Part shown: in pieces, positions 3,861 to 46,370 of the stretch
Layout of the letters: each line of letters opens with the position of its first letter
How positions within the stretch are numbered: the first letter of the stretch is position 1
Source of the DNA: a virus
Reading direction: 5' to 3' (one strand)
Virus record (IMG/VR): IMGVR_UViG_3300038629_000162
Span: 1 to 47,894 of that record
Length of the DNA stretch: 47,894 nucleotides
Position numbers and translations under genes: made by a program
The notes under the pieces: generated by a model
What the model saw: the letters and a program-made list of their open reading frames with translations, nothing else
The model's database searches: none
Told to the model about the DNA's origin: nothing

Positions 3861-3966
3861 GTGCTTCACGTCTGACGGAATGACCATCAGTTGCATGTGT
3901 GTGCGTGGCGTTGACCATGACGAAGCCTTGTTCGATGTGCCCGTGACGGAGAACACCGAGACCTGA
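3853..3966 (+). CDS. 37-residue Cys-containing peptide
   Basis: ATG 3853 overlaps the upstream stop, with GGGGAGACAACG as ribosome-binding site. The product (MHKCFTSDGMTISCMCVRG, then an acidic tail) has three cysteines and one histidine in its first 16 residues, a possible metal site. It is the last gene before the promoter at 3983. No family recognised. Confidence 0.45.
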   Translation: MHKCFTSDGMTISCMCVRGVDHDEALFDVPVTENTET

Positions 3967-3982
3967 AAAAATCTCAAACGAC

Positions 3983-4012
3983 TTGACGGCAATACCCTAG
4001 CCGTGTTACGCT
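3983..4012 (+). promoter_or_regulatory. Early promoter upstream of the structured leader
   Basis: -35 TTGACG at 3983-3988, an 18-base spacer, and -10 TACGCT at 4007-4012. The spacer and -10 (ATACCCTAGCCGTGTTACGCT) are nearly the same as those of the promoter at 2416-2445. Predicted start is near 4019, immediately before the 4020-4163 RNA stem. It likely drives the long operon from 4200. Confidence 0.65.
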
Positions 4013-4019
4013 CATCTCA

Positions 4020-4163
4020 GTTGATCGAGAGCTGTCTGCCGGTAGGCGGAATAACGGAGCGGGTCATTCCCGTAAGTGTCCACCTTCCACAGACCGTGTG
4101 GCGGCAACGTACGAGCCAATATGCGCAGGGGGCTTCGTCACCGGCAGAGAGCCCTCGATCAAC
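4020..4163 (+). ncRNA. Structured leader RNA, possible riboswitch or small RNA
   Basis: Bases 4020-4043 pair with 4140-4163 over 24 positions with 22 Watson-Crick pairs and two mismatches (4030/4153 and 4034/4149). The enclosed 96 bases can form at least three short hairpins: CGGG/CCCG at 4060-4072, CCACA/TGTGG at 4087-4101, and ACGAGCC with GGCTTCGT (one bulged T) at 4111-4138. The stem starts at the predicted transcription start and ends 37 bases before the ATG at 4200. It could be a cis-regulatory leader or a processed small RNA. It matches no RNA family I recognise, and it is not a tRNA. Confidence 0.6.
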
Positions 4164-4199
4164 AAGTCAGCCGAGATACGGCACCGATAGGAGAAGACA

Positions 4200-4424
4200 A
4201 TGCCAGCACCAGACGATCAGGTGATCAGGTTCATCGATAAGCACACGCCGTCCCTCGACCGGATCGAGCGGATCAGGGCGGTCGGGCTCATGCTCGACAT
4301 GGACGGCGACGAGCAGGGAGCTCGGGACGTTCAGTCCATCGTGGACACGTTCACCGCTCTCCGGCAGCTTCGGGGCAAGCCCGTAGCTCACGCCCTCGGC
4401 GGCATGGATCGGGCGGGCGTCTGA
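4200..4424 (+). CDS. Small helical protein, first gene of the long operon
   Basis: A 74-residue protein from ATG 4200 with TAGGAGAAG upstream. Mostly helical and charged (DQVIRFIDKHTPSLDRIERI; DEQGARDVQSIVDTFTALRQ). It follows the structured leader directly and would be the first gene under its control. The stop overlaps the next ATG (TGATG). No family recognised. Confidence 0.6.
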   Translation: MPAPDDQVIRFIDKHTPSLDRIERIRAVGLMLDMDGDEQGARDVQSIVDTFTALRQLRGKPVAHALGGMDRAGV

Positions 4425-4672
4425 TGGCTGAAGCAAACGAGCTGGTGCCCGACTACGAGCCGCTGTTCAGGTACCGATCGACAGACTCCAGCCTCGCTGT
4501 TGGGATCCCCACCAATAAGCAACGTCCAGACCTTGACCAGATCCTGATTGAGATCGACCTTGTGTTCCGATCCAGAGAGGACAACCTGTGGCGCTATGTG
4601 GGCCAACAGGTATGGATCGGAATCGCCCAACTCATTCGCATCGAGGAGGTTGCCCATGCCGACCAAAGCTGA
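4424..4672 (+). CDS. Small acidic/hydrophobic protein, unknown function
   Basis: An 82-residue product coupled to the upstream gene through TGATG. It begins with a charged segment (ELVPDYEPLFRYRS) and continues with IEIDLVFRSREDNLW and VWIGIAQLIRIEE, alternating strands and a helix. The 3' end overlaps the next gene by 17 bases and supplies its GAGGAGG ribosome-binding site. No family recognised. Confidence 0.55.
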   Translation: MAEANELVPDYEPLFRYRSTDSSLAVGIPTNKQRPDLDQILIEIDLVFRSREDNLWRYVGQQVWIGIAQLIRIEEVAHADQS

Positions 4673-5006
4673 GCTCGTGATAAACCTGAACGACAACAAC
4701 CGAGTCATTGCGGAGAAGGACCGCCTGCTCAAGGAACAGCTCGCTCGACATGATCAGACCAAGGCTGAGCTCGACGCCCTGCAGGAGGAGTTCGACAAAT
4801 ATCAGGAGTCCACTGAGAAGGCCACCTTCGGGAACGCCAACGATATCCGATTGGAGATGCTGGCTCTCGTTCGCATGGAATCCCCGGTCTACGCCATTGC
4901 GTACGCCGAGGCCGCACTCGCAGAGTTCCCCGCTCTGCCTGATGACAACACGGTCGACCTGTCTCGGGTGCCTCCGAGCCAGAGCGTCCTGAGGGAGTTC
5001 GGATGA
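4656..5006 (+). CDS. Coiled-coil protein, unknown function
   Basis: A 116-residue protein from ATG 4656, selected over upstream in-frame starts because GAGGAGG lies about 9 bases before it. Residues about 5-60 are a heptad-like coiled coil rich in Lys/Glu/Leu (NRVIAEKDRLLKEQLARHD; KAELDALQEEFDKYQE). A second helical segment (DIRLEMLALVRMESPVYAIAY) and an acidic C-terminus follow. It overlaps the next gene by four bases. Probably a multimer; role unknown. Confidence 0.6.
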   Translation: MPTKAELVINLNDNNRVIAEKDRLLKEQLARHDQTKAELDALQEEFDKYQESTEKATFGNANDIRLEMLALVRMESPVYAIAYAEAALAEFPALPDDNTVDLSRVPPSQSVLREFG

Positions 5007-5245
5007 TCAACGGCATCAAGGACTTCATCCTGTTCGTGTACGACGACGTCGACAGCGTGCCGCTCACCGTCTTCGTCATATCGGTAGCCACGCTCCTCGC
5101 TATGACGGTGCTGGGGCTTGTGGGGCTCTTGGTCGGGCTCATGGTCACGGATTGGTTGGGCAGGGTGGTGCTGGGGCTCATCGTGCTCATCGTCTGGGTG
5201 GTCACCAAGATCACCAAGGACGTCATTGCTGAGGAAGAAGCATGA
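5003..5245 (+). CDS. Two-helix membrane protein
   Basis: An 80-residue protein starting in an ATGA overlap. It has two long hydrophobic segments, about residues 20-46 (LTVFVISVATLLAMTVLGLV and following) and 52-68 (RVVLGLIVLIVWVV), then a short charged tail (KITKDVIAEEEA). It sits among several other one- or two-helix proteins in this operon. Role unknown; it is far from the lysis cassette, so a holin role is unlikely. Confidence 0.6.
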   Translation: MINGIKDFILFVYDDVDSVPLTVFVISVATLLAMTVLGLVGLLVGLMVTDWLGRVVLGLIVLIVWVVTKITKDVIAEEEA

Positions 5246-5355
5246 GCCAGTTCATTCTGCTCGCCCTGTACAACCTCGTGCTGACGTTGTGGCTCGCCGA
5301 GATCGGGTTCGTCCTCTATTGGCACCCTGACCTGATGGAGGACTTAGGCATATGA
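5242..5355 (+). CDS. 37-residue single-helix membrane peptide
   Basis: ATG 5242 overlaps the upstream stop, with GAGGAAGAAG as ribosome-binding site. The product is one hydrophobic helix (FILLALYNLVLTLWLAEIGF) with a short acidic tail. It ends in an ATGA overlap with the next gene. Overlap on both sides supports translation. Role unknown. Confidence 0.55.
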   Translation: MSQFILLALYNLVLTLWLAEIGFVLYWHPDLMEDLGI

Positions 5356-5534
5356 GCAGAGCCAAACGCACGTCAAAGAGGCAGCTCAGGCACGACCTTG
5401 TCTTCGCACGGGACGACATCGAAGCCCTCGAACTGAGGCTGCTGATCAGGGACAACTACATCATCGCTCTGGAGCAGATCCTGAGACTCAGGGACGAGCT
5501 GATCGCCATCCTCAGAACAGGGAGTCAAACATGA
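5352..5534 (+). CDS. Small basic helical protein
   Basis: A 60-residue product coupled upstream through ATGA. The N-terminus is strongly basic (SRAKRTSKRQLRHD); the rest is one amphipathic helix with Leu/Ile heptads (IEALELRLLIRDNYIIALEQ), compatible with a short coiled coil. A basic end plus coiled coil could bind nucleic acid, but this is only a possibility. It overlaps the next gene by four bases. Confidence 0.5.
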   Translation: MSRAKRTSKRQLRHDLVFARDDIEALELRLLIRDNYIIALEQILRLRDELIAILRTGSQT

Positions 5535-5884
5535 ACATCAACATTATGGAAGTGATCGGTCTCGCTCTTCTCTGCGTGGTATTCAGCGCATCGTTGGTGG
5601 TTGCGACCTTCACCGTCGTTGAGATCATCCAAGAGTGGTACGCCAAGTGGCGTGCTCCCGACGAGCCGAAGACGACCTACGTCGAGCCACGGATCAACCT
5701 GCGGATCTGCTCCACACATCGTGGCATAGCCGCACGCCAGCAACGCAAGGGCGGCGGCAAGGTCTACTACTGGATGAATTACTGCTCTCGGGGCGCTGAG
5801 GTGGCGTGCCGGATGAAGACCATCAGGATCACAAGGATCGAATTCGATGCCCTGTTCGGAGAGTACACGGAGGTACCACTATGA
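5531..5884 (+). CDS. Membrane-anchored protein with a Cys/basic domain
   Basis: A 117-residue protein. One transmembrane helix (about residues 6-30) is followed by a cytoplasmic-looking, basic domain with three cysteines (ICSTHRG, YCSRGAEVAC) and a conserved-looking REGION of strands. The Cys/His pattern could hold a metal. Start in an ATGA overlap; GTTCG..GGGAGTCAAAC upstream gives a GGGAG site. No family recognised. Confidence 0.5.
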   Translation: MNINIMEVIGLALLCVVFSASLVVATFTVVEIIQEWYAKWRAPDEPKTTYVEPRINLRICSTHRGIAARQQRKGGGKVYYWMNYCSRGAEVACRMKTIRITRIEFDALFGEYTEVPL

Positions 5885-6264
5885 AACCAACCAGCAACAA
5901 CGACGTTCCGAGAGATGGACTGGAGGCGCTGCCCACAGTGTCTGACGCCATGAAGAAGATGGCTGAGGCTATGGATCTGTTCAGCGAGGCGTTCTCCGCA
6001 TTCGTTGATCTCTGGGAAGACTCTCTGGTTGCCCAGAAGATCAGGGCCGCTCGCATACAGATGGAGCTCGCCAACAACACAGAGGTGTCTCGCACGGTGC
6101 TCAACGACGCCATCGAGGTCTGGACGCTGCCTGACGATCCCCTCCGTGAAGAGCTCGAAGCTCTGGACCGACCAATACCCCACATTCTCAGCACCGAGGA
6201 GCTCGATGCCATCGAGGACGAGGACGAGCGTTGGGCCAAGATCGACAGTCAGGACACAATATGA
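5881..6264 (+). CDS. Helical acidic protein, unknown function
   Basis: A 127-residue product from ATG 5881, which overlaps the upstream stop (ATGA) and follows ACGGAGGTACC. The central part is a run of amphipathic helices (MKKMAEAMDLFSEAFSAFVD). The C-terminus is very acidic and ends EELDAIEDEDERWAKID, a segment similar to the end of the product of the gene at 6454 (GEIKAINDEDALWTYID). That shared ending suggests common descent or a shared partner. Confidence 0.55.
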   Translation: MKPTSNNDVPRDGLEALPTVSDAMKKMAEAMDLFSEAFSAFVDLWEDSLVAQKIRAARIQMELANNTEVSRTVLNDAIEVWTLPDDPLREELEALDRPIPHILSTEELDAIEDEDERWAKIDSQDTI

Positions 6265-6419
6265 GGTGCCCGTCCAAGTTCAAGATCGAGGTGGCCGGGA
6301 CGACAACGGTGCTCCCCTTCCAGTGTGACGCTGACACCAAGGGTCACGCTGGTCGGCACTACGGCGTCAAGCACGGGTACTACATCCGCTGGAACACAGA
6401 ACAGGAGACGAGCCGATGA
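6261..6419 (+). CDS. Small Cys/His-containing protein
   Basis: A 52-residue product starting in an ATGA overlap. It carries MRCPS near the start and FQCDADTKGHAGRHYGVKHG in the middle: two cysteines and three histidines, spaced as in a small zinc-binding knuckle. The pattern C...(about 18)...C-D-x(6)-H-x(3)-H recurs in small actinophage proteins, but I cannot name a family. It ends in an ATGA overlap. Confidence 0.5.
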   Translation: MRCPSKFKIEVAGTTTVLPFQCDADTKGHAGRHYGVKHGYYIRWNTEQETSR

Positions 6420-6457
6420 AGTTGGCAACGCAATACCCCGAGCTGGGGATCAAATGA
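6416..6457 (+). CDS. 13-residue coupling peptide (tentative)
   Basis: ATG 6416 overlaps the upstream stop, follows ACAGGAGACGAG and opens a 13-codon frame (MKLATQYPELGIK) whose stop overlaps the next ATG at 6454. It fills an otherwise unexplained 37-base gap and has start-stop overlaps on both sides. It may act only to carry ribosomes to the next gene. Confidence 0.3.
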   Translation: MKLATQYPELGIK

Positions 6458-6714
6458 GTATCTGGATGGAGCTTCCTGCGGACATGACCTTCGCTGACCT
6501 GCCTGATGGCGCCAAGTGGTTGGTCGACCCTCGTGAGCCGGGAGTGCAGGCGGGCGGTCGGTACGTCGTTCCTGTGGAGCCCGCATATATTCACGTACCT
6601 GAGCAGCTCGTGCCGGAGGAAGAGAACGACCCCTACGTGCTGAGCGAGGGAGAGATCAAGGCAATCAACGACGAAGACGCACTTTGGACGTACATAGACG
6701 GGACGGGACCATGA
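6454..6714 (+). CDS. Small acidic protein, unknown function
   Basis: An 86-residue product from ATG 6454 (GAGCTGGGGATCAA upstream). The first half is strand-like and Gly/Pro-rich (ADLPDGAKWLVDPREPG). The second half is acidic and ends GEIKAINDEDALWTYIDG, similar to the end of the product of the gene at 5881. It overlaps the next gene by four bases. No family recognised. Confidence 0.5.
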   Translation: MSIWMELPADMTFADLPDGAKWLVDPREPGVQAGGRYVVPVEPAYIHVPEQLVPEEENDPYVLSEGEIKAINDEDALWTYIDGTGP

Positions 6715-6875
6715 CAGAAGCCGAAGTGGATTACGACACCGTGTACGACGACCTGCTCAACGACGGGTATGAGAGTGACGTGGCTGAGCGGATGGCTGAG
6801 AAGGTCACGAACGCCAAGTTCACGCACGAGCAGTTCCAGCAGATCAGGGAGATCATGGAGGCGTCGTTCACATGA
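6711..6875 (+). CDS. Small acidic helical protein
   Basis: A 54-residue product from ATG 6711, overlapping the upstream stop. It is acidic and helical (YDTVYDDLLNDGYESDVAER and FTHEQFQQIREIM). The LLNDGY.SDVAERMAEKVT stretch resembles a UBA-like three-helix pattern, but the match is too weak to assign. It overlaps the nucleotidase gene by four bases. Confidence 0.5.
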   Translation: MTEAEVDYDTVYDDLLNDGYESDVAERMAEKVTNAKFTHEQFQQIREIMEASFT

Positions 6876-7486
6876 ACCACGACACCATGCCCATCATCAA
6901 CGTGGACGTCGACGGCGTGCTGTACGACTTCACTGGAGCCATGCGTAACGAGGTGGTCGCCCAGATGGGGATCGCCCCTGACTCCCTGCCAACGCCGACC
7001 GAGTGGCGACTCCACAAGGCGTGGCCGCTGACGTGGGCGCAGGTGCACGGCATCATGCATGACGGCATTGCTCAGGGTCGCCTGTTTCGCCGTGGCGAGG
7101 TGATCGACTTCGGTGGAGCTACGCTCGCACTGCGAAACATCATGGCACTGGGCTGGCATGTGCGCCTTGTGACAGCAAAGACGTTTGATGACACCTTCAT
7201 CACTATGCAGGCTCGCAAGAACATGCTCGACTGGGTCTATGAGAATGAGATCCCTCATCACACGATCAGTTTCAGTGACCGTTCCGGCAAACTCTCCTAC
7301 ACGGCTGACGCTGTCATTGATGACAAACCGTCACTGGAGTGGTGCCAGTGGAACGCTGAGAACTTCCTGTTCGATCAATCGTGGAATCAGGACGTGGATG
7401 ACACCGAGTACACAGACAACGGCTCGGAGATCATGAGGGTGAGATCGATCGCTGACGTGTACGAGATCCTGAAGGGCTCACCGTGA
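6872..7486 (+). CDS. HAD-superfamily 5'(3')-nucleotidase-like phosphatase
   Basis: A 204-residue protein of the haloacid dehalogenase superfamily. Motif I is VDVDGVLYDFTGA with nucleophile D12 and general acid/base D14. Motif II is LVTAK (Thr), followed by a conserved Lys. Motif III is AVIDDKP (D150, D151), binding magnesium. Length and motif layout fit the phage and bacterial 5' nucleotidase/deoxyribonucleotidase group, which removes phosphate from nucleoside monophosphates. Together with the kinase-like gene at 7896 it would adjust deoxynucleotide pools during replication. Start in an ATGA overlap. The substrate is inferred. Confidence 0.75.
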   Translation: MNHDTMPIINVDVDGVLYDFTGAMRNEVVAQMGIAPDSLPTPTEWRLHKAWPLTWAQVHGIMHDGIAQGRLFRRGEVIDFGGATLALRNIMALGWHVRLVTAKTFDDTFITMQARKNMLDWVYENEIPHHTISFSDRSGKLSYTADAVIDDKPSLEWCQWNAENFLFDQSWNQDVDDTEYTDNGSEIMRVRSIADVYEILKGSP

Positions 7487-7704
7487 GCAAGAGGAAGAAA
7501 CCGCCGTGCTCCTGTGAAGCAGACTTCACAACTGTTGGAGAGATGGAGGTGCGTGTGGTGCGTGTTTGGGATCGCAAGCTGAAGCGTGCTCGGAACTACA
7601 CGAGAAGGATCGCAGCGAAGAGAATCACACACAGGCTGGGAGACAAGTTCTTATGGCACTGGTCCGACCAGAAGAACCTGAGGAGAGTCACACATGACCA
7701 TTGA
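7483..7704 (+). CDS. Small basic protein with CxC, unknown function
   Basis: A 73-residue product from GTG 7483 overlapping the upstream stop (GTGA), with GAAGG upstream. It is highly basic (SKRKKPP at the start; DRKLKRARNYTRRIAAKRIT in the middle) and has a CSC pair near the N-terminus. Strand-rich middle (EVRVVRVWD). A nucleic-acid-binding role is plausible from charge only. It overlaps the next gene by 11 bases. Confidence 0.5.
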   Translation: MSKRKKPPCSCEADFTTVGEMEVRVVRVWDRKLKRARNYTRRIAAKRITHRLGDKFLWHWSDQKNLRRVTHDH

Positions 7705-7903
7705 GAGGCAACAGGCCGCAGCCATCGTGAAGATCTCACGAGAGCTGGAAGAGATCAAGGACATTCTCAAACAGGCATTCCCGCCCGCCGACACACGTCC
7801 ACTCGCAGAGCGGATGAAAGAGGCCACCGAAGCAATGGTTGGATCTCTGACGCCCGAGTCTCGTGCAATGGTTGAGGCGCAACTGGGTGGCTTCAATGAC
7901 TAG
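7694..7903 (+). CDS. Small helical protein, unknown function
   Basis: A 69-residue product from ATG 7694, with GAGGAGAG upstream. Two helices separated by a Pro-rich turn: IVKISRELEEIKDILKQAF, then RMKEATEAMVGSLTPESRAM. The first helix has coiled-coil spacing. It overlaps the kinase gene by 8 bases. No family recognised. Confidence 0.5.
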   Translation: MTIERQQAAAIVKISRELEEIKDILKQAFPPADTRPLAERMKEATEAMVGSLTPESRAMVEAQLGGFND

Positions 7904-8441
7904 CAAGCTGTACGTCGGGTTCACAGGCAAGGCCGGAGCTGGCAAGGACTACATTGCCGACAAGCTCATCGAGCGACTCATTCCGCATGCCTCCACGGTT
8001 CGAGTGCCGTGGGCGCAGGGCGTCCGTGACGAGATCGAGATCGAGCTCGGGACGGGCTGCATCGAGAGGCTTCACGAGAAACCAACGCCCTATCCCATCC
8101 GCAGGTTGCTGCAATGGTGGGGCACGGACTTCCGGCGACAGCAGGATCCTGACTACTGGGTGAACTGGGGTCTCGGGGTTGCGGAGTCGACACTCTCGAA
8201 CATCGTGTTCTTCACAGACACACGGTTCGAGAACGAGGTGGACGCCATCATACGCAGAGGCGGAATCATCATCAACGTGCAGGCCAGCGAGTGGACTCGT
8301 GTGGACAGGATCGGTGAAGTGCCGAGCCACGCATCAGAGGAGCTCGCCGACCTGCTGCGGTACGACGTTCGGATCGACAACACCATCAGCACGCCCGACA
8401 CAGACGAGGCGTACAGCCTCATACGACGACTCACCGACTAG
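7896..8441 (+). CDS. P-loop nucleotide kinase-like protein (dNMP kinase type)
   Basis: A 181-residue protein from ATG 7896; an in-frame ATG at 7863 has no good site and would deepen the overlap. The Walker A loop is GFTGKAGAGKDYIADKL (G11 to K17), in the GK.G.GKD form typical of phage deoxynucleoside monophosphate kinases and adenylate-kinase-like proteins. WWGTDFRRQQDPDYWV and a VFFTDTRFENEVDAI strand-helix (with D and R) match the body of that group, where the TD.RF..E segment is the Walker B region. Expected reaction: ATP-driven phosphorylation of deoxynucleoside monophosphates. Substrate range is inferred. Confidence 0.7.
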   Translation: MTSKLYVGFTGKAGAGKDYIADKLIERLIPHASTVRVPWAQGVRDEIEIELGTGCIERLHEKPTPYPIRRLLQWWGTDFRRQQDPDYWVNWGLGVAESTLSNIVFFTDTRFENEVDAIIRRGGIIINVQASEWTRVDRIGEVPSHASEELADLLRYDVRIDNTISTPDTDEAYSLIRRLTD

Positions 8442-8456
8442 TACGAGGAGGATGAC

Positions 8457-8816
8457 ATGGATACGAAACCCACCCACCTAGCCACAGCGAACCGCCCCGG
8501 CGAGATCTGGGAGCTGAACGGCAACCGCATCGGAGGTGTCCACTTCCGATATGAGTGTGGAGACACGCCGTGCGTGCTGCACAACCCGACCGACCACTCC
8601 ATGCGTGGCTTCAGCCTGCACTGGAGAGACGATCGAAGCATCTTCGAGAGGGTCTGCGAGCACGGGATCGGACACCCTGACCCAGACCAGTTCGAGTACT
8701 GGAAAGAGAATGAGAAGAGCAACCGTTTCGTAGAAGCTGGCTGGGCCGACGCCATGATGGTTCACGGCTGTGACGGGTGCTGCGTAACCACCAACAAGAG
8801 AGAGGAACGACCATGA
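8457..8816 (+). CDS. Cys/His-rich protein, unknown function
   Basis: A 119-residue product with a strong GAGGAGGA site before ATG 8457. The N-terminal half reads PGEIWELNGNRIGGVHFRYE, and a possible metal site follows with paired Cys and His (ECGDTPCVLH, CEHGIGHPD, HGCDGCC). Six cysteines and several histidines suggest a zinc-binding fold. It overlaps the next gene by four bases. No family recognised. Confidence 0.55.
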   Translation: MDTKPTHLATANRPGEIWELNGNRIGGVHFRYECGDTPCVLHNPTDHSMRGFSLHWRDDRSIFERVCEHGIGHPDPDQFEYWKENEKSNRFVEAGWADAMMVHGCDGCCVTTNKREERP

Positions 8817-8971
8817 TCAACAAGTGCGGCTGGTGCGGACGTAGGATCTACCCTTGGTCCCAGAGCATCGTCCAGACAATGTACGGCAAGAGGCACATAA
8901 CGTGCCACATCGCAAAGAACCTGAGTGTGCACAAGACGGCACAACTCTCGAACAGACTGGAGACAACATGA
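8813..8971 (+). CDS. Small zinc-finger protein
   Basis: A 52-residue product from ATG 8813 (AGAGAGGAACGACC upstream), overlapping the prior stop. It has CGWCGRRIYPW near the start and KRHITCH in the middle, giving a CxxC...HxxxCH pattern of a treble-clef-like zinc finger, then a basic Ser/Leu tail. Likely nucleic-acid or protein binding. It overlaps the next gene by four bases. Confidence 0.55.
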   Translation: MINKCGWCGRRIYPWSQSIVQTMYGKRHITCHIAKNLSVHKTAQLSNRLETT

Positions 8972-9228
8972 GTCAAGGTGGAGCCCGAGCAGGGCAGGAC
9001 GCAAGGAAGCTGATCGCCAACGCACAGGAGCAGAGGCTCCAGTTGGCGATGAACGACGTACAGATCAAGCTGGAGTGCCACCAGCGAGCAGTGTCGTCAA
9101 CGACGCTGTTCGAGCGGATCGGCGAGACGGAGCGCACGACGCCCGCTGCCACGGAGATCCAGCTCGCCTACGCCAAAGCGATCTACGACTGGGTGACGAC
9201 ATCGCTCGTTATCGAGCCGGGAGAATGA
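8968..9228 (+). CDS. Small helical protein, unknown function
   Basis: An 86-residue product from ATG 8968 (GGAGACAAC upstream). Nearly all helix: ARKLIANAQEQRLQLAMNDV, a central Cys/His (LECHQR), and a final helix (EIQLAYAKAIYDWVT). It overlaps the next gene by four bases. No family recognised. Confidence 0.5.
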   Translation: MSQGGARAGQDARKLIANAQEQRLQLAMNDVQIKLECHQRAVSSTTLFERIGETERTTPAATEIQLAYAKAIYDWVTTSLVIEPGE

Positions 9229-9419
9229 GACCAGACAGGGTCGAGTACCTGATCCTGTTCGCAGGTGATGCGGAGCCTCAGGTCAAGACCGACACGAGAT
9301 CGGCCGCAGAGATGTGGGCCAGAGCCTACATCTCTCGGACTGGGCACGAGGTTCGACTTATCCGCAGGACGTGGTCAAAGGTCGACACGCCGATCGAGAT
9401 CAGGGAGGAACAAATATGA
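9225..9419 (+). CDS. Small alpha/beta protein, unknown function
   Basis: A 64-residue product from ATG 9225 in an ATGA overlap, with GGGAGA upstream. The order strand (VEYLILFAG), helix (SAAEMWARAYISR), strand (HEVRLIRRTW) and strand suggests a compact alpha/beta fold. It overlaps the next gene by four bases. No family recognised. Confidence 0.5.
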   Translation: MRPDRVEYLILFAGDAEPQVKTDTRSAAEMWARAYISRTGHEVRLIRRTWSKVDTPIEIREEQI

Positions 9420-9739
9420 CCGCAAAGAACCAGACAGTGGAAGTAGTTACGTCGACCGAGTCTGAGGACAGTCAACTCACCCAGTCCATGAAGTTGTCGT
9501 GGTTCACGATGCTCGTGGCGAACGTGTCCGTGAAGAACTTCCCTGACGTGGAGACACCTCTGGTAGCTGACATCGTCTCGGCGTTTCTGGACGAGCTCAG
9601 GGCCAACAGCGGTAAGTTGGTGAAGGGCGGTTTGCTCGCTGACTACGGAATCGATCTGAGGGACCTGAACAACTTACTTCGGTTCCTCGGTGAGGACAGG
9701 GTCAAGGTCGAGGGCGTTGTGCTAAGGTCATCGACATGA
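9416..9739 (+). CDS. Helical protein, unknown function
   Basis: A 107-residue product from ATG 9416 (AGGGAGGAACAAAT upstream). After a polar N-terminus come helices (TQSMKLSWFTMLVANVSVKN, LVADIVSAFLDELRA) and a final segment, YGIDLRDLNNLLRFLGEDRV, that resembles a helix-turn-helix end. A DNA-related role is possible but not supported by a recognised family. It overlaps the next gene by four bases. Confidence 0.5.
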   Translation: MTAKNQTVEVVTSTESEDSQLTQSMKLSWFTMLVANVSVKNFPDVETPLVADIVSAFLDELRANSGKLVKGGLLADYGIDLRDLNNLLRFLGEDRVKVEGVVLRSST

Positions 9740-9879
9740 ATATCGTAATCGGAGTCCTCATGGGAACCGCCGCCTACTTCATTGCTACGTTGTACACCAT
9801 GCGGTACTACCTCGGCCCAATGCTGAAGGCAAGCAGGGAGCAGTACGAGCTCGTGGACGGGGAGACAGATGAGTACTGA
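9736..9879 (+). CDS. 47-residue single-pass membrane protein
   Basis: ATG 9736 overlaps the upstream stop. One N-terminal transmembrane helix (IVIGVLMGTAAYFIATLYTM) is followed by a short acidic tail (REQYELVDGETDEY). It overlaps the next gene by 11 bases and provides its GGGGAGACAG ribosome-binding site. Role unknown. Confidence 0.55.
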   Translation: MNIVIGVLMGTAAYFIATLYTMRYYLGPMLKASREQYELVDGETDEY

Positions 9880-10195
9880 GCACCAGCACCATATGCGGCC
9901 ATCTCGTGTGGTCATCGAGACTCGTGGTGAGGACGACATCGAGTGGTCAACCGAAGACGGTCTGCGTGGCATAAACGTGGCCCCCTTCGGAGTGGTTGGG
10001 GAGTTCGAGGGGAAGGAGATCACGCAGCAAATGGTGAGCTGGTACGAGATCTCCAAGTTCACGATCTTCGATCTTGACTTCCGACAACCAGAAGAAAAAC
10101 CACCAGTTCAGATGTGCATCGAATGCAAGGGCACCGGCCTGACCAATGGTGGAGAAACCCGTTGTGAAGCGTGCGACGGGTATGGGCACGTCTGA
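9869..10195 (+). CDS. Protein with DnaJ-like half zinc domain
   Basis: A 108-residue product from ATG 9869. The N-terminal two thirds are strand-rich (RVVIETRGEDDIEWS; SWYEISKFTIFDLDF). The C-terminus has two CxxCxGxG repeats, CIECKGTGL and CEACDGYGHV, equal to half of the DnaJ cysteine-rich zinc domain; phage proteins often carry this half-domain as a zinc knuckle. There is no J domain, so it is not a chaperone of the DnaJ type. It overlaps the WhiB gene by 14 bases. Confidence 0.6.
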   Translation: MSTEHQHHMRPSRVVIETRGEDDIEWSTEDGLRGINVAPFGVVGEFEGKEITQQMVSWYEISKFTIFDLDFRQPEEKPPVQMCIECKGTGLTNGGETRCEACDGYGHV

Positions 10196-10457
10196 CCGTG
10201 AGTGGGTCGACAGGAGTGCCTGCCTCCAGTCGTACGACGAGCGGTTCTTCCCCTCTCGTGGAGACTCGAACAAAGAGGCTAAGGCGATCTGTTTCGACCA
10301 GTGTCCAGTCCGAGAGGAATGTCTCGAACACGCCCTTACGAAACCGGAGCGGTTCGGGATCTGGGGAGGCACCTCGGAGCGTGAGCGTCAGGAGATTCGC
10401 CGCAGACGAAACGTCGAGGCGAGATTGGAGATGAGCCGTGGCAAAGAAAAGACGTAG
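10182..10457 (+). CDS. WhiB-family iron-sulfur transcription factor
   Basis: A 91-residue protein. The four cluster cysteines are C14, C37, C41 and C47 in the standard order (C, then CFDQCPVREEC), followed by the family turn GIWGGT (59-64) and a basic C-terminus (RRRRN) for DNA contact. WhiB proteins hold a [4Fe-4S] cluster and bind the host sigma factor; the family is limited to Actinomycetota and their phages, so this fixes the host group. Start chosen at ATG 10182; an in-frame ATG at 10146 would overlap the previous gene more. Phage WhiB proteins can alter host transcription or block expression of the host's own WhiB; which applies here is not known. Confidence 0.9.
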   Translation: MGTSDREWVDRSACLQSYDERFFPSRGDSNKEAKAICFDQCPVREECLEHALTKPERFGIWGGTSERERQEIRRRRNVEARLEMSRGKEKT

Positions 10458-10524
10458 AGGCATCAGATCTCAGTCGAGACTGAAGCGACGAGTAGGTGCA
10501 GGTCGCAGGAAGAAGAAGAAGTAG
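10438..10524 (+). CDS. 28-residue highly basic peptide
   Basis: GTG 10438, overlapping the WhiB gene by 20 bases with GGAGATGAG upstream, opens a frame for MAKKRRRGIRSQSRLKRRVG and a GRRKKKK end. About half the residues are Arg or Lys and none are acidic. This composition suits binding to RNA or DNA, as in small ribosomal or protamine-like proteins. It could also be a chance frame, but start, site and gene spacing are all suitable. Confidence 0.45.
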   Translation: MAKKRRRGIRSQSRLKRRVGAGRRKKKK

Positions 10525-10546
10525 GCTGGGTGGCAGGAGGTGCAGT

Positions 10547-10777
10547 ATGACGTACCTTGAGCACACCATTGAGATGGTCAATGCGTTCGAGGACTCCTGC
10601 CTCTGTCGGGAGATCGAGCAGGCAGAGATCGATCGGATGCGAAACAATGAGCCTTTGATGAGGCCAGCCAGCAGGTTCGCTTACTACCAGATGAGGCTGA
10701 TGGTCTCGATAGCTGAATCCCTGCAGATGATATCTGGCGAGGTGAAGAAGAAGAAGAAGAAGAAAGGGCTCCCGTGA
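10547..10777 (+). CDS. Helical protein with poly-Lys tail, last gene of the long operon
   Basis: A 76-residue product from ATG 10547 with an excellent AGGAGGTG site. Helical throughout (YLEHTIEMVNAFEDSCLCRE; YYQMRLMVSIAESLQMISG), with a CLC pair, and ends in seven lysines plus GLP. The stop codon lies inside the terminator loop at 10765-10787. No family recognised. Confidence 0.6.
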   Translation: MTYLEHTIEMVNAFEDSCLCREIEQAEIDRMRNNEPLMRPASRFAYYQMRLMVSIAESLQMISGEVKKKKKKKGLP

Positions 10778-10794: not shown

Positions 10795-10893
10795 TCATGA
10801 GCAGCCGGTGGTCTCTCCGCAGGTGAGGCAGATCATGCAGGTACCAGCGGGCTGCAGGTGAGTGTTGCCGCAGTTGGCGCACTTCTCAGGCAT
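10795..10893 (-). CDS. Stand-alone zinc ribbon resembling the class II RNR C-terminus
   Basis: A 32-residue reverse-strand protein. The start at 10893 is preferred over a longer frame from 10998 because AAAGGAAC precedes it at proper spacing. It has CANCGNTHLQ, then GTCMICLTCGETTGCS: CxxC and CxxCxxC-type pairs in the order seen at the C-terminal end of B12-dependent (class II) ribonucleotide reductases. Here the catalytic part is missing. It may be a leftover tail, a free electron-transfer module, or simply a small zinc ribbon. The remark about the reductase comes from family memory and was not searched. Confidence 0.5.
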   Translation of the reverse strand: MPEKCANCGNTHLQPAGTCMICLTCGETTGCS

Positions 10894-10972
10894 TTGCCAG
10901 TTCCTTTGCTCGGCCCACCAGCTTAGCCGAAAACGGGACCCAAAGAAACTTTGCAACTGTTGGATAAATCGC

Positions 10973-11001
10973 TTGACTTGTGATACGTCTACCCCCATAA
11001 T
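10973..11001 (+). promoter_or_regulatory. Promoter giving a leaderless transcript
   Basis: -35 TTGACT (10973-10978), a 17-base spacer and -10 CATAAT (10996-11001). The ATG at 11008 begins 6 bases after the -10 box, at the expected transcription start, and has no ribosome-binding site, so the first gene would be translated from a leaderless mRNA. Confidence 0.7.
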
Positions 11002-13922: not shown

Positions 13923-13951
13923 GAGACTGTCTCCAGTAGCCACGGACGAGG

Positions 13952-13978
13952 AAGAGCCCCGCTCAAGGCGGGGCTCTT
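13952..13978. terminator. Strong intrinsic terminator before the late genes
   Basis: A perfect 11-bp stem, AAGAGCCCCGC / GCGGGGCTCTT, with a 5-base loop TCAAG and a short T-rich end. It separates the TIGR03299 operon from the structural genes. A smaller dyad, CGGTGA / TCACCG (13990-13995, 14006-14011), follows. Confidence 0.85.
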
Positions 13979-14061
13979 TCTCGTTCGCACGGTGAGATAG
14001 GAGTATCACCGATCTGATGAGTGTAGCGCAAAGATTGAGTGCGTGGTGACTCTGTAAGTGT

Positions 14062-35331: not shown

Positions 35332-38300
35332 ATGAGCAAGAACGTAGAAGTCTGGACACAGCCAGAAACTGGGACATTCACAAAGAAGATCGCTGACCTC
35401 CCGTGGGCTCGCATAGGGTTCAACAGAGGTATCTCAATCGTGGGTCAGGGTCAGATTGAGCTGCCTGCATCGTACGATCGACTTGACGAACTCATCGATC
35501 CAGAAAACAACTCAGGCTCCATGATCAGAGTGTGGCAGGACGGCCAGAACGTCGAGTCGTTCTACGCAGACGAGGTGACCTTCGATGAGGGGAAGCAGGG
35601 CACTGTCACGATCTCTGGTCCAAACATCGAGCACGGACTTGAGAAGGGCGTCGTGTATCCGTGGGACTGGACGCCGGGGGCGACAGCAACGCTATTCCCA
35701 GACTGGGTGTACGGGGTGGGGTCCAGCATCATTCAGGACATCAGCTTTGACGACTCCATCCAGTCTCCTCTGGTCAACGGTGACTTCGAGAAGGGTGACG
35801 CAAGTGGGTGGGCCGTGTTCGGCAAGGATCCTGATGACGAGGACGACCCCGGCCCTTCACTCGACGTTGTCAACAACCCAGCCAATGCGTACGAGGGCAA
35901 CTACTTCGTCATCATCGACCCGACCGTGGTGCACGGTGGACTCAAGCAGGAAGGCATCAGGGTCTACCCCAACAAGACAAACGGATTCAGTGCACGAGTC
36001 AAGGGACCGGGACCGATAGGTGACCGCATCACCATGAACTACAGGGCAGAGGCTGGCACAGTCGCTGCCACAGGGTCACCGTACTTCCAGACCTACACCA
36101 ACGGAGAGATCCAAGCCGAGCTCGACAACGCTGTGTACGAGACTGGAGCCACAGACGGAACGTGGCAAGAGATCATCATGAACGCCACATGGGGTGGAGA
36201 CCAGTACGACACTGATCTCTACGTCCAGTACGACGACCACAGCAAGGCCAACGGTGAAGTCTTCTGGTTGGACGCCTTCACAATGACTGGGTTCGGCGTC
36301 GGCGTCGGCCCGTGGGAGGCCGTCGGCACAGAGTGGATGACTGTCTTCGAGGGTTCCTCGTTCATCGCCCATTCAGGAACACAGTCGCTCGCCATGTCAA
36401 TGAGCGGGATTGCTCAACCATCGGGAGCGGTAGGAATCAGACAGCCGGTCGAGTTCGAGGCCGGAGCACCGTACACAGCAGAGGTGTGGGTGTGGACACC
36501 AACAGGTGGTTCACCGACGGTGAGGCTGGCCGTGAGTCAAGCCGATGGTGGAGCTGAGCTTGGCAGCGTGGAGGTTGACGTTGTCGCCAGCACATGGACG
36601 AAGCTAGAGGTACAGGTCACTCCTCCTGAAGGGATACTCGATGGGTTCATCGGGTTGGCTTGGGTGGAGACCTACGCAGGAACGCTCTACGTTGATGACT
36701 TCGACGTGAAGGACGGACTGCCCGCTGCAACTGCTGGAAAGATTGTTGGTGATGCGCTGACCGCCGTCACCACCAGAGACGGTGGAGACTCCGCTCTGCT
36801 GTGGCTCAAGTGGGATAGCTGGGACGAGACCTACGACACCAACGGACAACTCTGGGGGGAGGAGCTGGACATGCGTGTGTCCAGAGGCATGACGATACGT
36901 CAGCTCCTCGATCGACTCTCAGACTGGGGCATCGAGTGGGAAGTGGTATGGAACGTAGGATCCTCTCAATACGAGCTCAAGCTGTACAAGAAGTTCGACG
37001 GCACCACAGGTGGAGCTGGTGGAGCGTCCACAGTCAGGCTCATCAGCGGCAAGTCATTCCGAACCGGACAGGTGCGGCTCCGTGACGCTGGCCCCAACAC
37101 ATTCCTCGCTGAGGGTGCTGACGGGACGATCATGGAGAAGCAGAGCGCAGCGTTGGAAGCTGGGTATGGTCGTGTCGAGGGGTACATCTCACAGGGCAGC
37201 GCAGAGGGAGCCGAGACACTGGAGTCGATCATCGACACCTCGCTCGTGGAGTCCGAGAACCAGAAGTTCGGCATCAAGGCTGCACTGTTCCAGCGTCCCT
37301 TTCCCCTGCTCGACTTCGATCTCGGTGACCGTCCAGAAGTGAACCTACCTCCGCACCTACCTGACGACACCTACAGGGTTGTTGGGTACACAGGTGCGTG
37401 GGACGCCGCAGAGGACAGTGATGAGTACACGCTGAGTTTCTCCACGCACGTCTTCGATGATCCATTCGGCGGCACCACATCCGAGGCTACCTCCGCAGGA
37501 CTCAACTACCTGCTCGGGAAGTACGAAGGGTTGCCTGACATTGATCGTGTGTCTGGTACCTCCACCACAATCGGCACTGTGGGCGCAGAACCAGCTCCGA
37601 TTGAACGAGTCCCTACGTTCACTGTGGCGTCTAGCTATGCCCGACAGTACGTCAAGAACCTCGCCGACTTCGTGTGTGACGGCATAGATGATCAGATCGA
37701 TATTCAGCGAGCGTTGGATGCGTTGCCATCTGGAGGCGGGCGAGTGGTGTTGACGGAAGGCTGGTACAACTGTGTGATGCCGACCACTGGGGCGGACACG
37801 ATCGTCATCCCGTTTAGGTCGACCTTGCAGGGCATGGGTAAGGGCACAGTACTTCTGTTCACTGGTGGTAGCACGGGCTGGAACTCCGGTATCGCCTTGG
37901 TGTCGGAAGCACGCTGCCAGTCAATGACTGTCAACACCAGCGGAATGGCTGTCGACAAAGTGATCTCGGTAGACAGCGCAGACAAAGCGTGGGTGTCTGA
38001 AGTCCAGTTCACGGGAATGTCTGACAATGGGCAAACCGACCAAGTATATCTCCAGATGCCGTGGCGTGCCTTGACGAGAAACTGTGAATTCTATGACCTC
38101 GGAACACAGGACTTCGCTACCGAACGAATCGGTATCGACTGTAGTGGTGGGCTCGTGGAAGGCTGCTATTTCGAGGGTGGGTATGACGGAGGACAAATCT
38201 ATGACGGCATCGGCCTATATGGGTACGGGCAGTTCACCGGGAACATCTTTCACTATGCGAGCTTGTGGGCAAGAGGCTTCTCAACGTCTGTCGGCAATAA

Positions 38301-39729
38301 CAACTTCTATGTGGGTGGCCTCGTATTGGACATGGCTGGCGACATGCTAGTCACAGGCAATGCCTTCACTGGCCTTCCCTCTGGTGGTGACCCAGACTTT
38401 GACAAGATACGTTTCCACAGCTCATGTACCGGCGTCAGCATTGTCGGCAACGACTTCTACGACACCGAGATCCAGTTCGACTGGAACACGACGCAGTACA
38501 ACCACACGATCGTCGGTAACAACTTTGAGCGCAGCGACGGCATCAGAATGAACGGTGCACCGTCGGACGAGTGGTTCTCCCTTGAAGGGTTCGTGATTGC
38601 GAGCAACCAGATGTCATCCGCTTGGGACAGCGGCGAGATACGGATCCACCTTGGCGACGACGCAGCGAACTTCTGTAGAGTAATAAACGGAGTCATCGCA
38701 AACAACACGATGTACTCAGACTTCGTTGGCGCCGTGATCGAGATCACCGACAAGGGCTCCACGGGCACCAGCGTTGCAGATGGCACGCTCCTAATCGCTG
38801 ACAACGTAATCAACGGTACGGACCCCGATCATTGGGGCGTCAAGATCAACGCCGACCATGATGCGGCACGGTGGAACTCACGCACCTACGAAGTCAAAGA
38901 CAACAACCTTACTGGCACGGACGGGATCTATGTCGACGGTGGAGGCATGACGGTCGTGACTGGCAACACGATGTCACAGATCGGTGCAGCCACGGACTTC
39001 TATGCAGTTGATGTGTGCGGACAGATCGCCGTGTACTCACATGAGCAAGCGATTGTCCGTGACAACTTCATCTCCATCGGTAAGCACATATCGGCGCTCA
39101 CGAACAAGGCTGTTATTTGGGTTGACTCTCCGAAGGGAACTGTCGCAGGGAACATCGTTGAAGGACACGTCATCGCTGGTGCGAACGGAATCGACACAGC
39201 GATCCTTCTCGACACTGGAGCGTTCAATGTGTTCGACAACTACTACGACGGTGTTGGTGCTCGATGGGCTTCTGGGTTGACCCCGCTCACAAACGAACTC
39301 GTCATCACTGGTACTGGATCGAAGGTCGGCGAGAACGGGATGACAGTTGACAACTCTGGCGGCACAGGGACAGAGTTTGCAGACGTTGACTCGGAACGCT
39401 GGTCAATGGCTGGCGTAGTCGATGTGAAGGTTGGCGAGCTTGAGATCACATGGTCGACGGACATTGAGATCCTTGAAATAGAATCACGCACGAAGGTTGC
39501 GCCCACCGGCACAGCAGTCATCATTGATGCCCACAAGAACGACACCACAACTCTTTACACGACGCAGGCGAACCGTCCAGAAATCGCAACGTCAACCAAG
39601 GCAGACACCACGACACCGGACATCACATTGGTAAGCGCTGGCGAGCCGGTTCGGATTGATGTCGACCAGAAGGACTCCAACAACGTAGCCGAGGGGCTGA
39701 CTGTTAGTGTTCGCTACAGGAGGGTCTGA
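35332..39729 (+). CDS. Tail tip protein with binding modules and a pectate-lyase-like beta-helix
   Basis: A 1465-residue protein. ATG 35332 is chosen over in-frame ATG 35320 inside the Dit gene. Residues 1-140 resemble the hub part of ReqiPepy6 Gp37-like proteins (GISIVGQGQIELPASYDRL). Two beta-sandwich, carbohydrate-binding-like modules follow, near 148 (NGDFEKGDASGWAVF) and 330-460 (HSGTQSLAMSMSG). Near 515, MTIRQLLDRLSDWGIEW continues the hub. At about 770 a beta-helix begins with ADFVCDGIDDQIDIQRALDA and GGGRVVLTEGWY, the pectate-lyase 3 signature, lasting to about 1330 with many GN-N turns. The last 130 residues are a beta domain. It probably binds or degrades a host surface glycan. Confidence 0.75.
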   Translation: MSKNVEVWTQPETGTFTKKIADLPWARIGFNRGISIVGQGQIELPASYDRLDELIDPENNSGSMIRVWQDGQNVESFYADEVTFDEGKQGTVTISGPNIEHGLEKGVVYPWDWTPGATATLFPDWVYGVGSSIIQDISFDDSIQSPLVNGDFEKGDASGWAVFGKDPDDEDDPGPSLDVVNNPANAYEGNYFVIIDPTVVHGGLKQEGIRVYPNKTNGFSARVKGPGPIGDRITMNYRAEAGTVAATGSPYFQTYTNGEIQAELDNAVYETGATDGTWQEIIMNATWGGDQYDTDLYVQYDDHSKANGEVFWLDAFTMTGFGVGVGPWEAVGTEWMTVFEGSSFIAHSGTQSLAMSMSGIAQPSGAVGIRQPVEFEAGAPYTAEVWVWTPTGGSPTVRLAVSQADGGAELGSVEVDVVASTWTKLEVQVTPPEGILDGFIGLAWVETYAGTLYVDDFDVKDGLPAATAGKIVGDALTAVTTRDGGDSALLWLKWDSWDETYDTNGQLWGEELDMRVSRGMTIRQLLDRLSDWGIEWEVVWNVGSSQYELKLYKKFDGTTGGAGGASTVRLISGKSFRTGQVRLRDAGPNTFLAEGADGTIMEKQSAALEAGYGRVEGYISQGSAEGAETLESIIDTSLVESENQKFGIKAALFQRPFPLLDFDLGDRPEVNLPPHLPDDTYRVVGYTGAWDAAEDSDEYTLSFSTHVFDDPFGGTTSEATSAGLNYLLGKYEGLPDIDRVSGTSTTIGTVGAEPAPIERVPTFTVASSYARQYVKNLADFVCDGIDDQIDIQRALDALPSGGGRVVLTEGWYNCVMPTTGADTIVIPFRSTLQGMGKGTVLLFTGGSTGWNSGIALVSEARCQSMTVNTSGMAVDKVISVDSADKAWVSEVQFTGMSDNGQTDQVYLQMPWRALTRNCEFYDLGTQDFATERIGIDCSGGLVEGCYFEGGYDGGQIYDGIGLYGYGQFTGNIFHYASLWARGFSTSVGNNNFYVGGLVLDMAGDMLVTGNAFTGLPSGGDPDFDKIRFHSSCTGVSIVGNDFYDTEIQFDWNTTQYNHTIVGNNFERSDGIRMNGAPSDEWFSLEGFVIASNQMSSAWDSGEIRIHLGDDAANFCRVINGVIANNTMYSDFVGAVIEITDKGSTGTSVADGTLLIADNVINGTDPDHWGVKINADHDAARWNSRTYEVKDNNLTGTDGIYVDGGGMTVVTGNTMSQIGAATDFYAVDVCGQIAVYSHEQAIVRDNFISIGKHISALTNKAVIWVDSPKGTVAGNIVEGHVIAGANGIDTAILLDTGAFNVFDNYYDGVGARWASGLTPLTNELVITGTGSKVGENGMTVDNSGGTGTEFADVDSERWSMAGVVDVKVGELEITWSTDIEILEIESRTKVAPTGTAVIIDAHKNDTTTLYTTQANRPEIATSTKADTTTPDITLVSAGEPVRIDVDQKDSNNVAEGLTVSVRYRRV

Positions 39730-44452: not shown

Positions 44453-44475
44453 GTTCCGTCGGTAACGGAAACAGG

Positions 44476-44501
44476 AGAGCCCCCTCGTGAGAGGGGGCTC
44501 T
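44476..44501. terminator. Terminator at the end of the late operon
   Basis: A perfect 11-bp stem, AGAGCCCCCTC / GAGGGGGCTCT, with loop GTGA, followed by TTCCGTTTGT. It lies 24 bases after the holin stop and divides the late module from the replication genes. Confidence 0.85.
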
Positions 44502-44532
44502 TCCGTTTGTCAGCCAGATCACCCGATAGGAG

Positions 44533-44551: not shown

Positions 44552-44584
44552 TCAGATGTCCGAGCTCTCAGCGTATCATGCCTA

Positions 44585-44614
44585 TGGACATCTGTCACTA
44601 TTGTGTGCTACAGT
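44585..44614 (+). promoter_or_regulatory. Promoter of the replication genes, leaderless
   Basis: -35 TGGACA (44585-44590), an 18-base spacer, -10 TACAGT (44609-44614). ATG 44622 follows 7 bases after the -10 box, so transcription would begin at or beside the start codon. The -10 and its surroundings match the late promoter at 14062. Confidence 0.65.
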
Positions 44615-44621
44615 TAGCGGC

Positions 44622-46370
44622 ATGGAGAATGTCAGCCTCAATCTCGTGGAGTCAGTCGATGACGCCTCAGCACTCATGTCATGGCTCGGTGAACGCCGAC
44701 CGTGGCTCGGTGTCGACACTGAGACTGGTGGTCTCGACTTCTACCGGAACCGACTGCGCCTAGTGCAGGTCGGTGACGCCAACACAGGGTGGGCCATCCC
44801 GTGGGAGCAATGGGGCGGGGTAGCCAAGCAAGCCATCGAGGGGTACACAGACCTGACCGTCATGCACAACTCGAAGTTCGATCTCTCCTTCCTTGAATAC
44901 AACGGCGTCAAGTATCCACGACGTGGGCTCCATGACACCATGCCGATGGTCGGTGTTGTCGAACCCGCCAAGGCCAAGGGACTCAAACCAGCCTCCGAGC
45001 GCCACGTCAGCCACGGCGTTGGATACGGACAGAAGCAACTCAACAAGATCAAGGCCAAGAACAAGTGGACATGGGACACCATCCCCATCGACGTTCCAGA
45101 GTACTGGTCGTATGGTGCACTGGACGTGGTGCTCACGGCTCGACTCGCTGACATCATGTACCCGAAGGTGATCGAGGGCGGTCTCAAGAAGGTGTACGAC
45201 GTGGAGGTGGCGCTCGCTCAGGTGCTGTGCGACATGGAGCGCAAGGGTCTGCTCATCGACGTCGACTACTGCCGAACTGTGTCCGCAGATCTGCGGGGCA
45301 AAGAGGACGAACTGTTCTACTGGTTCAAGGACGAGCTCGGCATCAAGAACCCACGCAGCGATGCGAACCTGATCACATGGTTTCAAAGTCAGGGGTTCGT
45401 CTTCACCCAGCTCACCGAGAAGGGGAACATCTCCATCGACGGTGACGTGCTGTCTGAGATCGGGGTCAACGCTCCGCACCTCCGTGAGATCGCTGAGGCA
45501 GTGGACAGGCTGCGTGACTTCCACAAGATGAGGGTCACGTACTTCGATTCGTTCCTTGAGTTCGCAGACCACGAAGATAGGATTCACACGCAGATCAATC
45601 CCATGAAGGCCATCACTGCTCGCATGTCCTCGGAGCGTCCGAACATGCAGAACGTACCGGCGAGGAAGCACGGCAAGTTTGTCCGTGACGCCATCATCCC
45701 AGCTCCCGGCCACAAGCTGATCGCTGCTGACTTCGATCAGATCGAGTACCGCATCATGGTCGCTCGTGCTGGTGAGCAGCAGCTCATCGATGCGATCAAC
45801 AACGGCCAAGACCTACACACATACATGACATCGGTTGTATACAACAAGCCGTACGAGGACGTCCAACCTGCCGAACGAGGCGTCATGAAGAACGCCACGT
45901 TCGCATTCCTCTACGGTGCTGGTGACGCCATGTTCTCCGGCATGGCTGGGATCCCTATCGCTGATGCGAAGGCGTTCCGTAACATGTACCAGCGGAAGTT
46001 TCCTGCCATCGCCCAGTACGCCCACATGATCACAACCGTTGGTCGCAACACTGGAAGCGCAACGACCGGATACCTCGGTCGCAAGCAGGTGGTGCGTGAG
46101 TCGAACAAGGCGTACAAGCTGCTCAACTACGCCACGCAGGGTGAGGCCGGTGACGTGCTCAAGCTCAAGATGGTTCACCTGTCGATGACTGACGCTGGAC
46201 CGTATATGCGCCTGCCCATCCACGACGAGATTCTGTTCGAGGTACCAGACGCAGAGGTTCCTCACATCCAGCAAGTAATCGAGGAGGTTATGCCCGAGCT
46301 CGACCACTTCTCAGTACCCCTGTCAGTTGGTACTGACGTGGTCGAGCGCTGGGGCGACAAGTATGAATGA
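44622..46370 (+). CDS. DNA polymerase I (family A) with 3'-5' exonuclease
   Basis: A 582-residue protein from ATG 44622; an in-frame ATG at 44556 would add 22 residues but lies upstream of the promoter. Proofreading domain: VDTETGG (D32, E34), HNSKFDL (N83, D87), YGALDVVLT. Polymerase domain: ARMSSERPNMQNVPA; motif A AADFDQIEYR (D370); motif B RGVMKNATFAFLYG (R419, K423, F427, Y431); motif C IHDEI (H534-E536). The residue equal to E. coli F762 is Phe. There is no 5' nuclease domain, as usual in phage enzymes. It copies the phage genome with the helicase and resolvase downstream. Confidence 0.95.
   Translation: MENVSLNLVESVDDASALMSWLGERRPWLGVDTETGGLDFYRNRLRLVQVGDANTGWAIPWEQWGGVAKQAIEGYTDLTVMHNSKFDLSFLEYNGVKYPRRGLHDTMPMVGVVEPAKAKGLKPASERHVSHGVGYGQKQLNKIKAKNKWTWDTIPIDVPEYWSYGALDVVLTARLADIMYPKVIEGGLKKVYDVEVALAQVLCDMERKGLLIDVDYCRTVSADLRGKEDELFYWFKDELGIKNPRSDANLITWFQSQGFVFTQLTEKGNISIDGDVLSEIGVNAPHLREIAEAVDRLRDFHKMRVTYFDSFLEFADHEDRIHTQINPMKAITARMSSERPNMQNVPARKHGKFVRDAIIPAPGHKLIAADFDQIEYRIMVARAGEQQLIDAINNGQDLHTYMTSVVYNKPYEDVQPAERGVMKNATFAFLYGAGDAMFSGMAGIPIADAKAFRNMYQRKFPAIAQYAHMITTVGRNTGSATTGYLGRKQVVRESNKAYKLLNYATQGEAGDVLKLKMVHLSMTDAGPYMRLPIHDEILFEVPDAEVPHIQQVIEEVMPELDHFSVPLSVGTDVVERWGDKYE

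Follow-up and report, generated by a model that had tools for sequence, protein, structure and literature searches.

What does a long base-paired stem do at the predicted start of a phage early transcript? This question is raised by a locus in an uncultured tailed phage, of which we analysed the whole 47.9-kb record (hereafter the window). The window carries terminase, portal and DNA polymerase I genes and also encodes a WhiB regulator, which indicates an actinobacterial host. It is probably an incomplete genome, since a related contig (G008, described below) matches its right end (47477–47887) and then runs on for 11.8 kb, with genes that by eye are methyltransferase-like and primase-like. 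The polymerase I gene (44556–46370) best fits ordinary polymerase I, with a weaker match to the models of aminoadenine-incorporating DpoZ (2e-31, far under their cut-off). A free-standing gene (10795–10998, minus strand) encodes a 67-aa protein whose NCBIfam match (E about 2e-7), to vitamin B12-dependent ribonucleotide reductase, covers just the C-terminus of that enzyme. The features of the early leader are these:

3983–3988, + strand: -35-like TTGACG of the early promoter, found by pattern search of the sequence
4004–4012, + strand: extended -10, TG-T-TACGCT; the same block stands at 2437–2445, ahead of the upstream operon
4019–4020, + strand: predicted transcription start, A4019 or G4020, placed by promoter spacing 7–8 nt past the -10
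4020–4043, + strand: 5' arm of the closing stem, from inverted-repeat search and folding
4044–4139, + strand: enclosed 96 nt, with no stability beyond shuffles when folded against them
4140–4163, + strand: 3' arm of the closing stem, from inverted-repeat search and folding
4164–4188, + strand: linker from the stem to the ribosome-binding site, with the small hairpin GCCGAGATACGGC
4189–4193, + strand: Shine-Dalgarno AGGAG, outside the stem
4200–4424, + strand: first gene of the early operon, 74 aa, without a family match

The early promoter spans 3983–4012 in the layout TTGACG, 18 nt, TG-T-TACGCT. The window has exactly two copies of the block TAG[AC]CGTG[CT]TACGCT (2431–2445 and 3998–4012), against a chance expectation of 0.0004 for a second copy, a recurrence that very probably marks a phage promoter. 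Both promoters also have an upstream AATACCC block in common, and these likenesses suggest that the two early operons may answer to a single regulator or use the same type of promoter. Separately, about 900 bases at 1490–2430 have no clear gene and are G-rich (GC skew 0.27 at 1001–2000); GTGTCAC/GTCACA repeats are enriched there (three of the window's five GTGTCAC), and the region is possibly a replication origin or an operator array.

Between 4020–4043 and 4140–4163, 22 of 24 positions form Watson-Crick pairs (mismatches A4030·C4153 and G4034·G4149), in three near-continuous runs that amount to about two helical turns. When the transcript 4019–4260 was folded, all 22 closing pairs were predicted with a probability of 0.98–1.0, and the whole element folded at z -4.9 to -5.6 relative to dinucleotide shuffles. 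On our own scoring the closing stem was the top long-range inverted repeat of the window (33.5, as against best-of-window scores of 23.2–30.4 in the 30 simulated windows that served as the null), and by a Gumbel fit a repeat of this kind is expected anywhere in the window with P of about 0.004. When the + strand was scanned by z-score, the 150-nt segment at 4021 came fourth of about 800; the top two coincided with hairpins at 13943–13987 and 44469–44508. The minus strand of the element folds equally well, so that folding energy alone cannot tell which strand is relevant. These results demonstrate that the closing stem is a real, non-random feature. They agree with the preliminary description of this locus, which had reported a 24-position stem with two mismatches, held it to be beyond chance and placed its onset at the predicted transcription start: position 4020 lies 0–1 nt after that start, as predicted from promoter spacing.

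The same description had placed at least three hairpins inside the stem, in a multi-branch junction, and this part was not borne out. The minimum-free-energy fold within the stem consisted of a 6-bp extension (4045–4050/4134–4139), two hairpins and a weak third, with some inner pairs at a probability of only 0.36–0.55. Folded alone, the interior (4044–4139) reached -27.4 kcal/mol, where shuffled sequences gave -30.6 (z +0.91, P 0.82), which makes it less stable than most shuffles. The excess stability of the element is thus confined to its closing stem. The AGGAG lies 26 nt beyond that stem, and the predicted fold does not strongly mask the ribosome site. No terminator was found after 4163; the element therefore reads as a leader rather than as a free-standing RNA, and the latter reading was set aside. 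An upstream-ORF reading was also set aside, as the internal ATG at about 4121 has no Shine-Dalgarno sequence.

No homologue of the leader was found, by sequence or by structure, in the phages, plasmids, IMG/VR, related contigs and actinobacterial genomes searched. An Rfam scan, a check proposed in the preliminary description, returned no family at gathering score in the window and, with E relaxed to 10, none in 3900–4300, the leader included. BLAST against phages and plasmids gave no significant match to the leader. IMG/VR scans with arm patterns gave 16 and 35 matches, none of which rebuilt the stem; any pairing slightly beyond the pattern was scattered, and they were treated as chance. Among the relatives, a one-sequence covariance model hit the window and the window's reverse strand and nothing else; it also found nothing in 6 genomes or in the 297 of the actinobacterial-genome set, and hence no host copy in either set.

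Relatives of the phage proved informative. Protein scans for close relatives found one 4-kb contig (L002, 80% DNA identity, without the leader) plus more distant genomes; capsid and terminase searches supplied G002 with G008 and G004 with G005, each pair being one genome, and G006. G002 and G008 overlap at 99.98% over 9.8 kb and make up one 52-kb genome, whose capsid is 58% identical to that of the window. Six TGATACAAT promoters in this merged genome are each followed by a hairpin at about +1 and then by a ribosome site of the GGAGGTCA type and an ATG (units at 1966, 5451, 6414, 7701 and 9523 in G002 coordinates, and at 39068, which is G008 25472). The ribosome sites are near-identical, whereas the hairpins vary in sequence, length and loop with their position kept. 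Compared with shuffles, the hairpin energies gave P values, in the same order, of 0.004, 0.004, 0.018, 0.046, 0.006 and 0.078 (combined 7e-7); for the unit at 9523, folding the leader by itself gave a best structure that begins three bases in. Two more promoters of this type (957 and 51592) have leaders that are short or absent. A 7-bp hairpin at +1, ahead of a ribosome site, also occurs in the distant relative L082.

A second long-stem RNA was found in the same merged genome. In G008, a TTTGCA..TGATACAAT promoter is followed directly by a 22-position stem (38447–38426/38272–38251, minus strand), on the strand opposite to the structural genes, and a second stem of 31 positions adjoins the first (38248–38218/38140–38110). 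The stem pair folds at z -4.75 and has no Rfam match. The element at 38447–38251 is an analogue of the window leader with no recognisable shared sequence. Positions 38110–38447 on the minus strand (19325–19662 of L024) form about 340 nt of apparently non-coding DNA, and the two-stem element lies beside a gene at the contig end that by eye is sigma-factor-like. Among 861 kb of fetched loci, only the window leader and the G008 RNA had an extended -10 immediately ahead of a long-range repeat; the chance of an extended -10 ending 2–9 nt upstream is 0.004 per site, a statistic that is supportive only, since the loci were partly picked for repeats and some contigs are redundant.

A base-paired 5' end calls for a stem at +1 but leaves its sequence free to change. 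We tentatively favour the explanation that the leader is an outsized 5'-terminal base-paired stem by which the polycistronic early mRNA is stabilised. Transcription by RNA polymerase would begin at A4019 or G4020, and the first bases of the transcript would be locked into the 24-position helix, leaving at most one unpaired nucleotide at the 5' end. Enzymes of 5'-end-dependent decay (an RppH-like pyrophosphohydrolase, RNase E, RNase J) would be denied a landing site, and we propose that the early message would therefore be longer-lived. Lying 26 nt beyond the stem, the ribosome-binding site would be left outside the helix, and the 96-nt interior would be mainly loop, for which a specific fold is unnecessary. 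We infer the start site from promoter spacing, and we likewise infer that the leader is transcribed and that it stabilises the message. The hairpins of G002 and G008, which keep the position of the stem while their sequence changes, speak for a base-paired 5' end, as do a non-chance stem whose onset is 0–1 nt from the predicted start, the long stem at a promoter in G008, and an excess stability that resides in the closing stem alone with the Shine-Dalgarno outside it. Against it, a short hairpin would suffice, and a 24-position stem with a 96-nt interior exceeds the need; the window promoters at 2437 and 11930 have no +1 hairpins, and these are equally missing from the small number of promoter-leader units identified in G004/G005; and our searches yielded no homologous leader showing compensatory change. 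Among the functions listed in the preliminary description, resistance to nucleases is the one favoured by the relatives.

Other roles for the stem in the nascent or finished transcript were considered. The helix may be an RNase III site, at which cutting would trim the early mRNA and free a fragment of roughly 100 nt; the 22 pairs in 24 positions accord with the dsRNA of about 20 bp that such an enzyme takes as substrate and make the stem a plausible target for a double-strand nuclease, but the promoter hairpins of G002 and G008 are mostly too short for the enzyme and cleavage is invisible in sequence, and we regard this role as doubtful. Such cleavage could possibly occur along with 5'-end protection, the two not being exclusive. 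Improbable in our judgement is a put-like action, in which the nascent stem would bind RNA polymerase and cause pauses and terminators to be ignored throughout the long early operon. The HK022 putL element, located immediately after an early promoter, needs no phage protein to act on terminators at a distance of 10 kb (PMC9378689), and the window leader, too, is placed at the predicted +1 ahead of a long early operon, as a structured RNA that would start the phage early transcript. However, putRNA is about 70 nt in two stem-loops with a defined fold and conserved sequence (PMC9378689), whereas the window leader is one long stem (144 nt) with an interior at z +0.9 and no sequence match to put. 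It would have few terminators to overcome, as no strong intrinsic terminator was found on the + strand from 4164 to 10756, and the hairpin sequences of G002 and G008 vary freely.

A protein-binding or riboswitch-like leader controlling the operon would fit the position ahead of the operon, and the large loop could carry a recognition sequence; yet the interior is unstructured, Rfam gave no match at E up to 10, and the expression platform of a riboswitch, be it a terminator or an anti-Shine-Dalgarno, is absent, so that this makes a poor candidate. The ligand-sensing or ornate RNA entertained in the preliminary description is accordingly not supported, an unstructured interior coming with neither a terminator nor a clearly sequestered ribosome site to act as the switch, and with no host copy among the 6 and the 297 genomes. 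The stem might finally have no RNA role and be a DNA feature, either a small inverted-repeat insertion or a template-switch palindrome beside the promoter. Like MITE-like elements, it has terminal inverted repeats (24 bp, in 144 bp total) around a short, non-coding and here unstructured interior; both strands fold equally, and removing the element leaves an ordinary leader of roughly 40 nt. It differs from them in lacking a target-site duplication (flanks compared at 2–12 bp) and in being single-copy in the window, with no other copy in phages, plasmids, the IMG/VR arm patterns or the 297 genomes, and an insertion would have had to hit the predicted start site to within a single base. Because of the missing duplication, the single copy and this exact placement, a MITE-like insertion is disfavoured, and we consider a pure DNA feature very improbable.

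A broader proposal builds on both long-stem elements. This phage group may possess a family of promoter-proximal leader RNAs, ranging from short +1 hairpins to long-stem elements of 140–200 nt, of which the window leader and G008 38447–38251 would be the large members, acting on the transcribing polymerase or on the decay machinery in a way undescribed for actinobacterial phages; we think this unlikely as it stands. Should the base-paired 5' end that we favour be correct, actinobacterial phages would routinely cap early messages in this manner as a promoter accessory, sometimes a very large one, and the leader would offer a simple part for raising mRNA lifetime in mycobacteria. The first reading of the locus would be corrected as well, with the signal coming from the stem at +1 rather than from a new ligand-binding fold.

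GOLLD and ROOL RNAs are often phage-borne. They are noncoding RNAs, as is the window leader, and were first found in uncultured microbes, but they are large, ornate and covarying (PMC12286853), whereas the window leader has neither an ornate interior nor an Rfam match. Closer likenesses are found among 5'-terminal stabilising stems. The DrrS RNA of M. tuberculosis has a stem from nucleotide 1 and a half-life above 6 h; it was destabilised when unpaired 5' bases were added, and its stem raised expression three-fold when placed before a lacZ reporter (PMC5360333). BsRppH requires at least two unpaired 5' nucleotides (PMC3997798). Going by its predicted start, the window leader would share with DrrS (PMC5360333) and the E. 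coli ompA/papA type (cited in PMC3997798) a stem no more than one base from +1, ahead of a ribosome-binding site or RNA body that is left free. The window stem differs from these in its 24 positions, in closing a 96-nt loop and in heading a phage early operon, with its stabilising effect a predicted one. On present evidence the leader is most likely a large variant of these known 5'-terminal stabilising stems, not a new RNA class.
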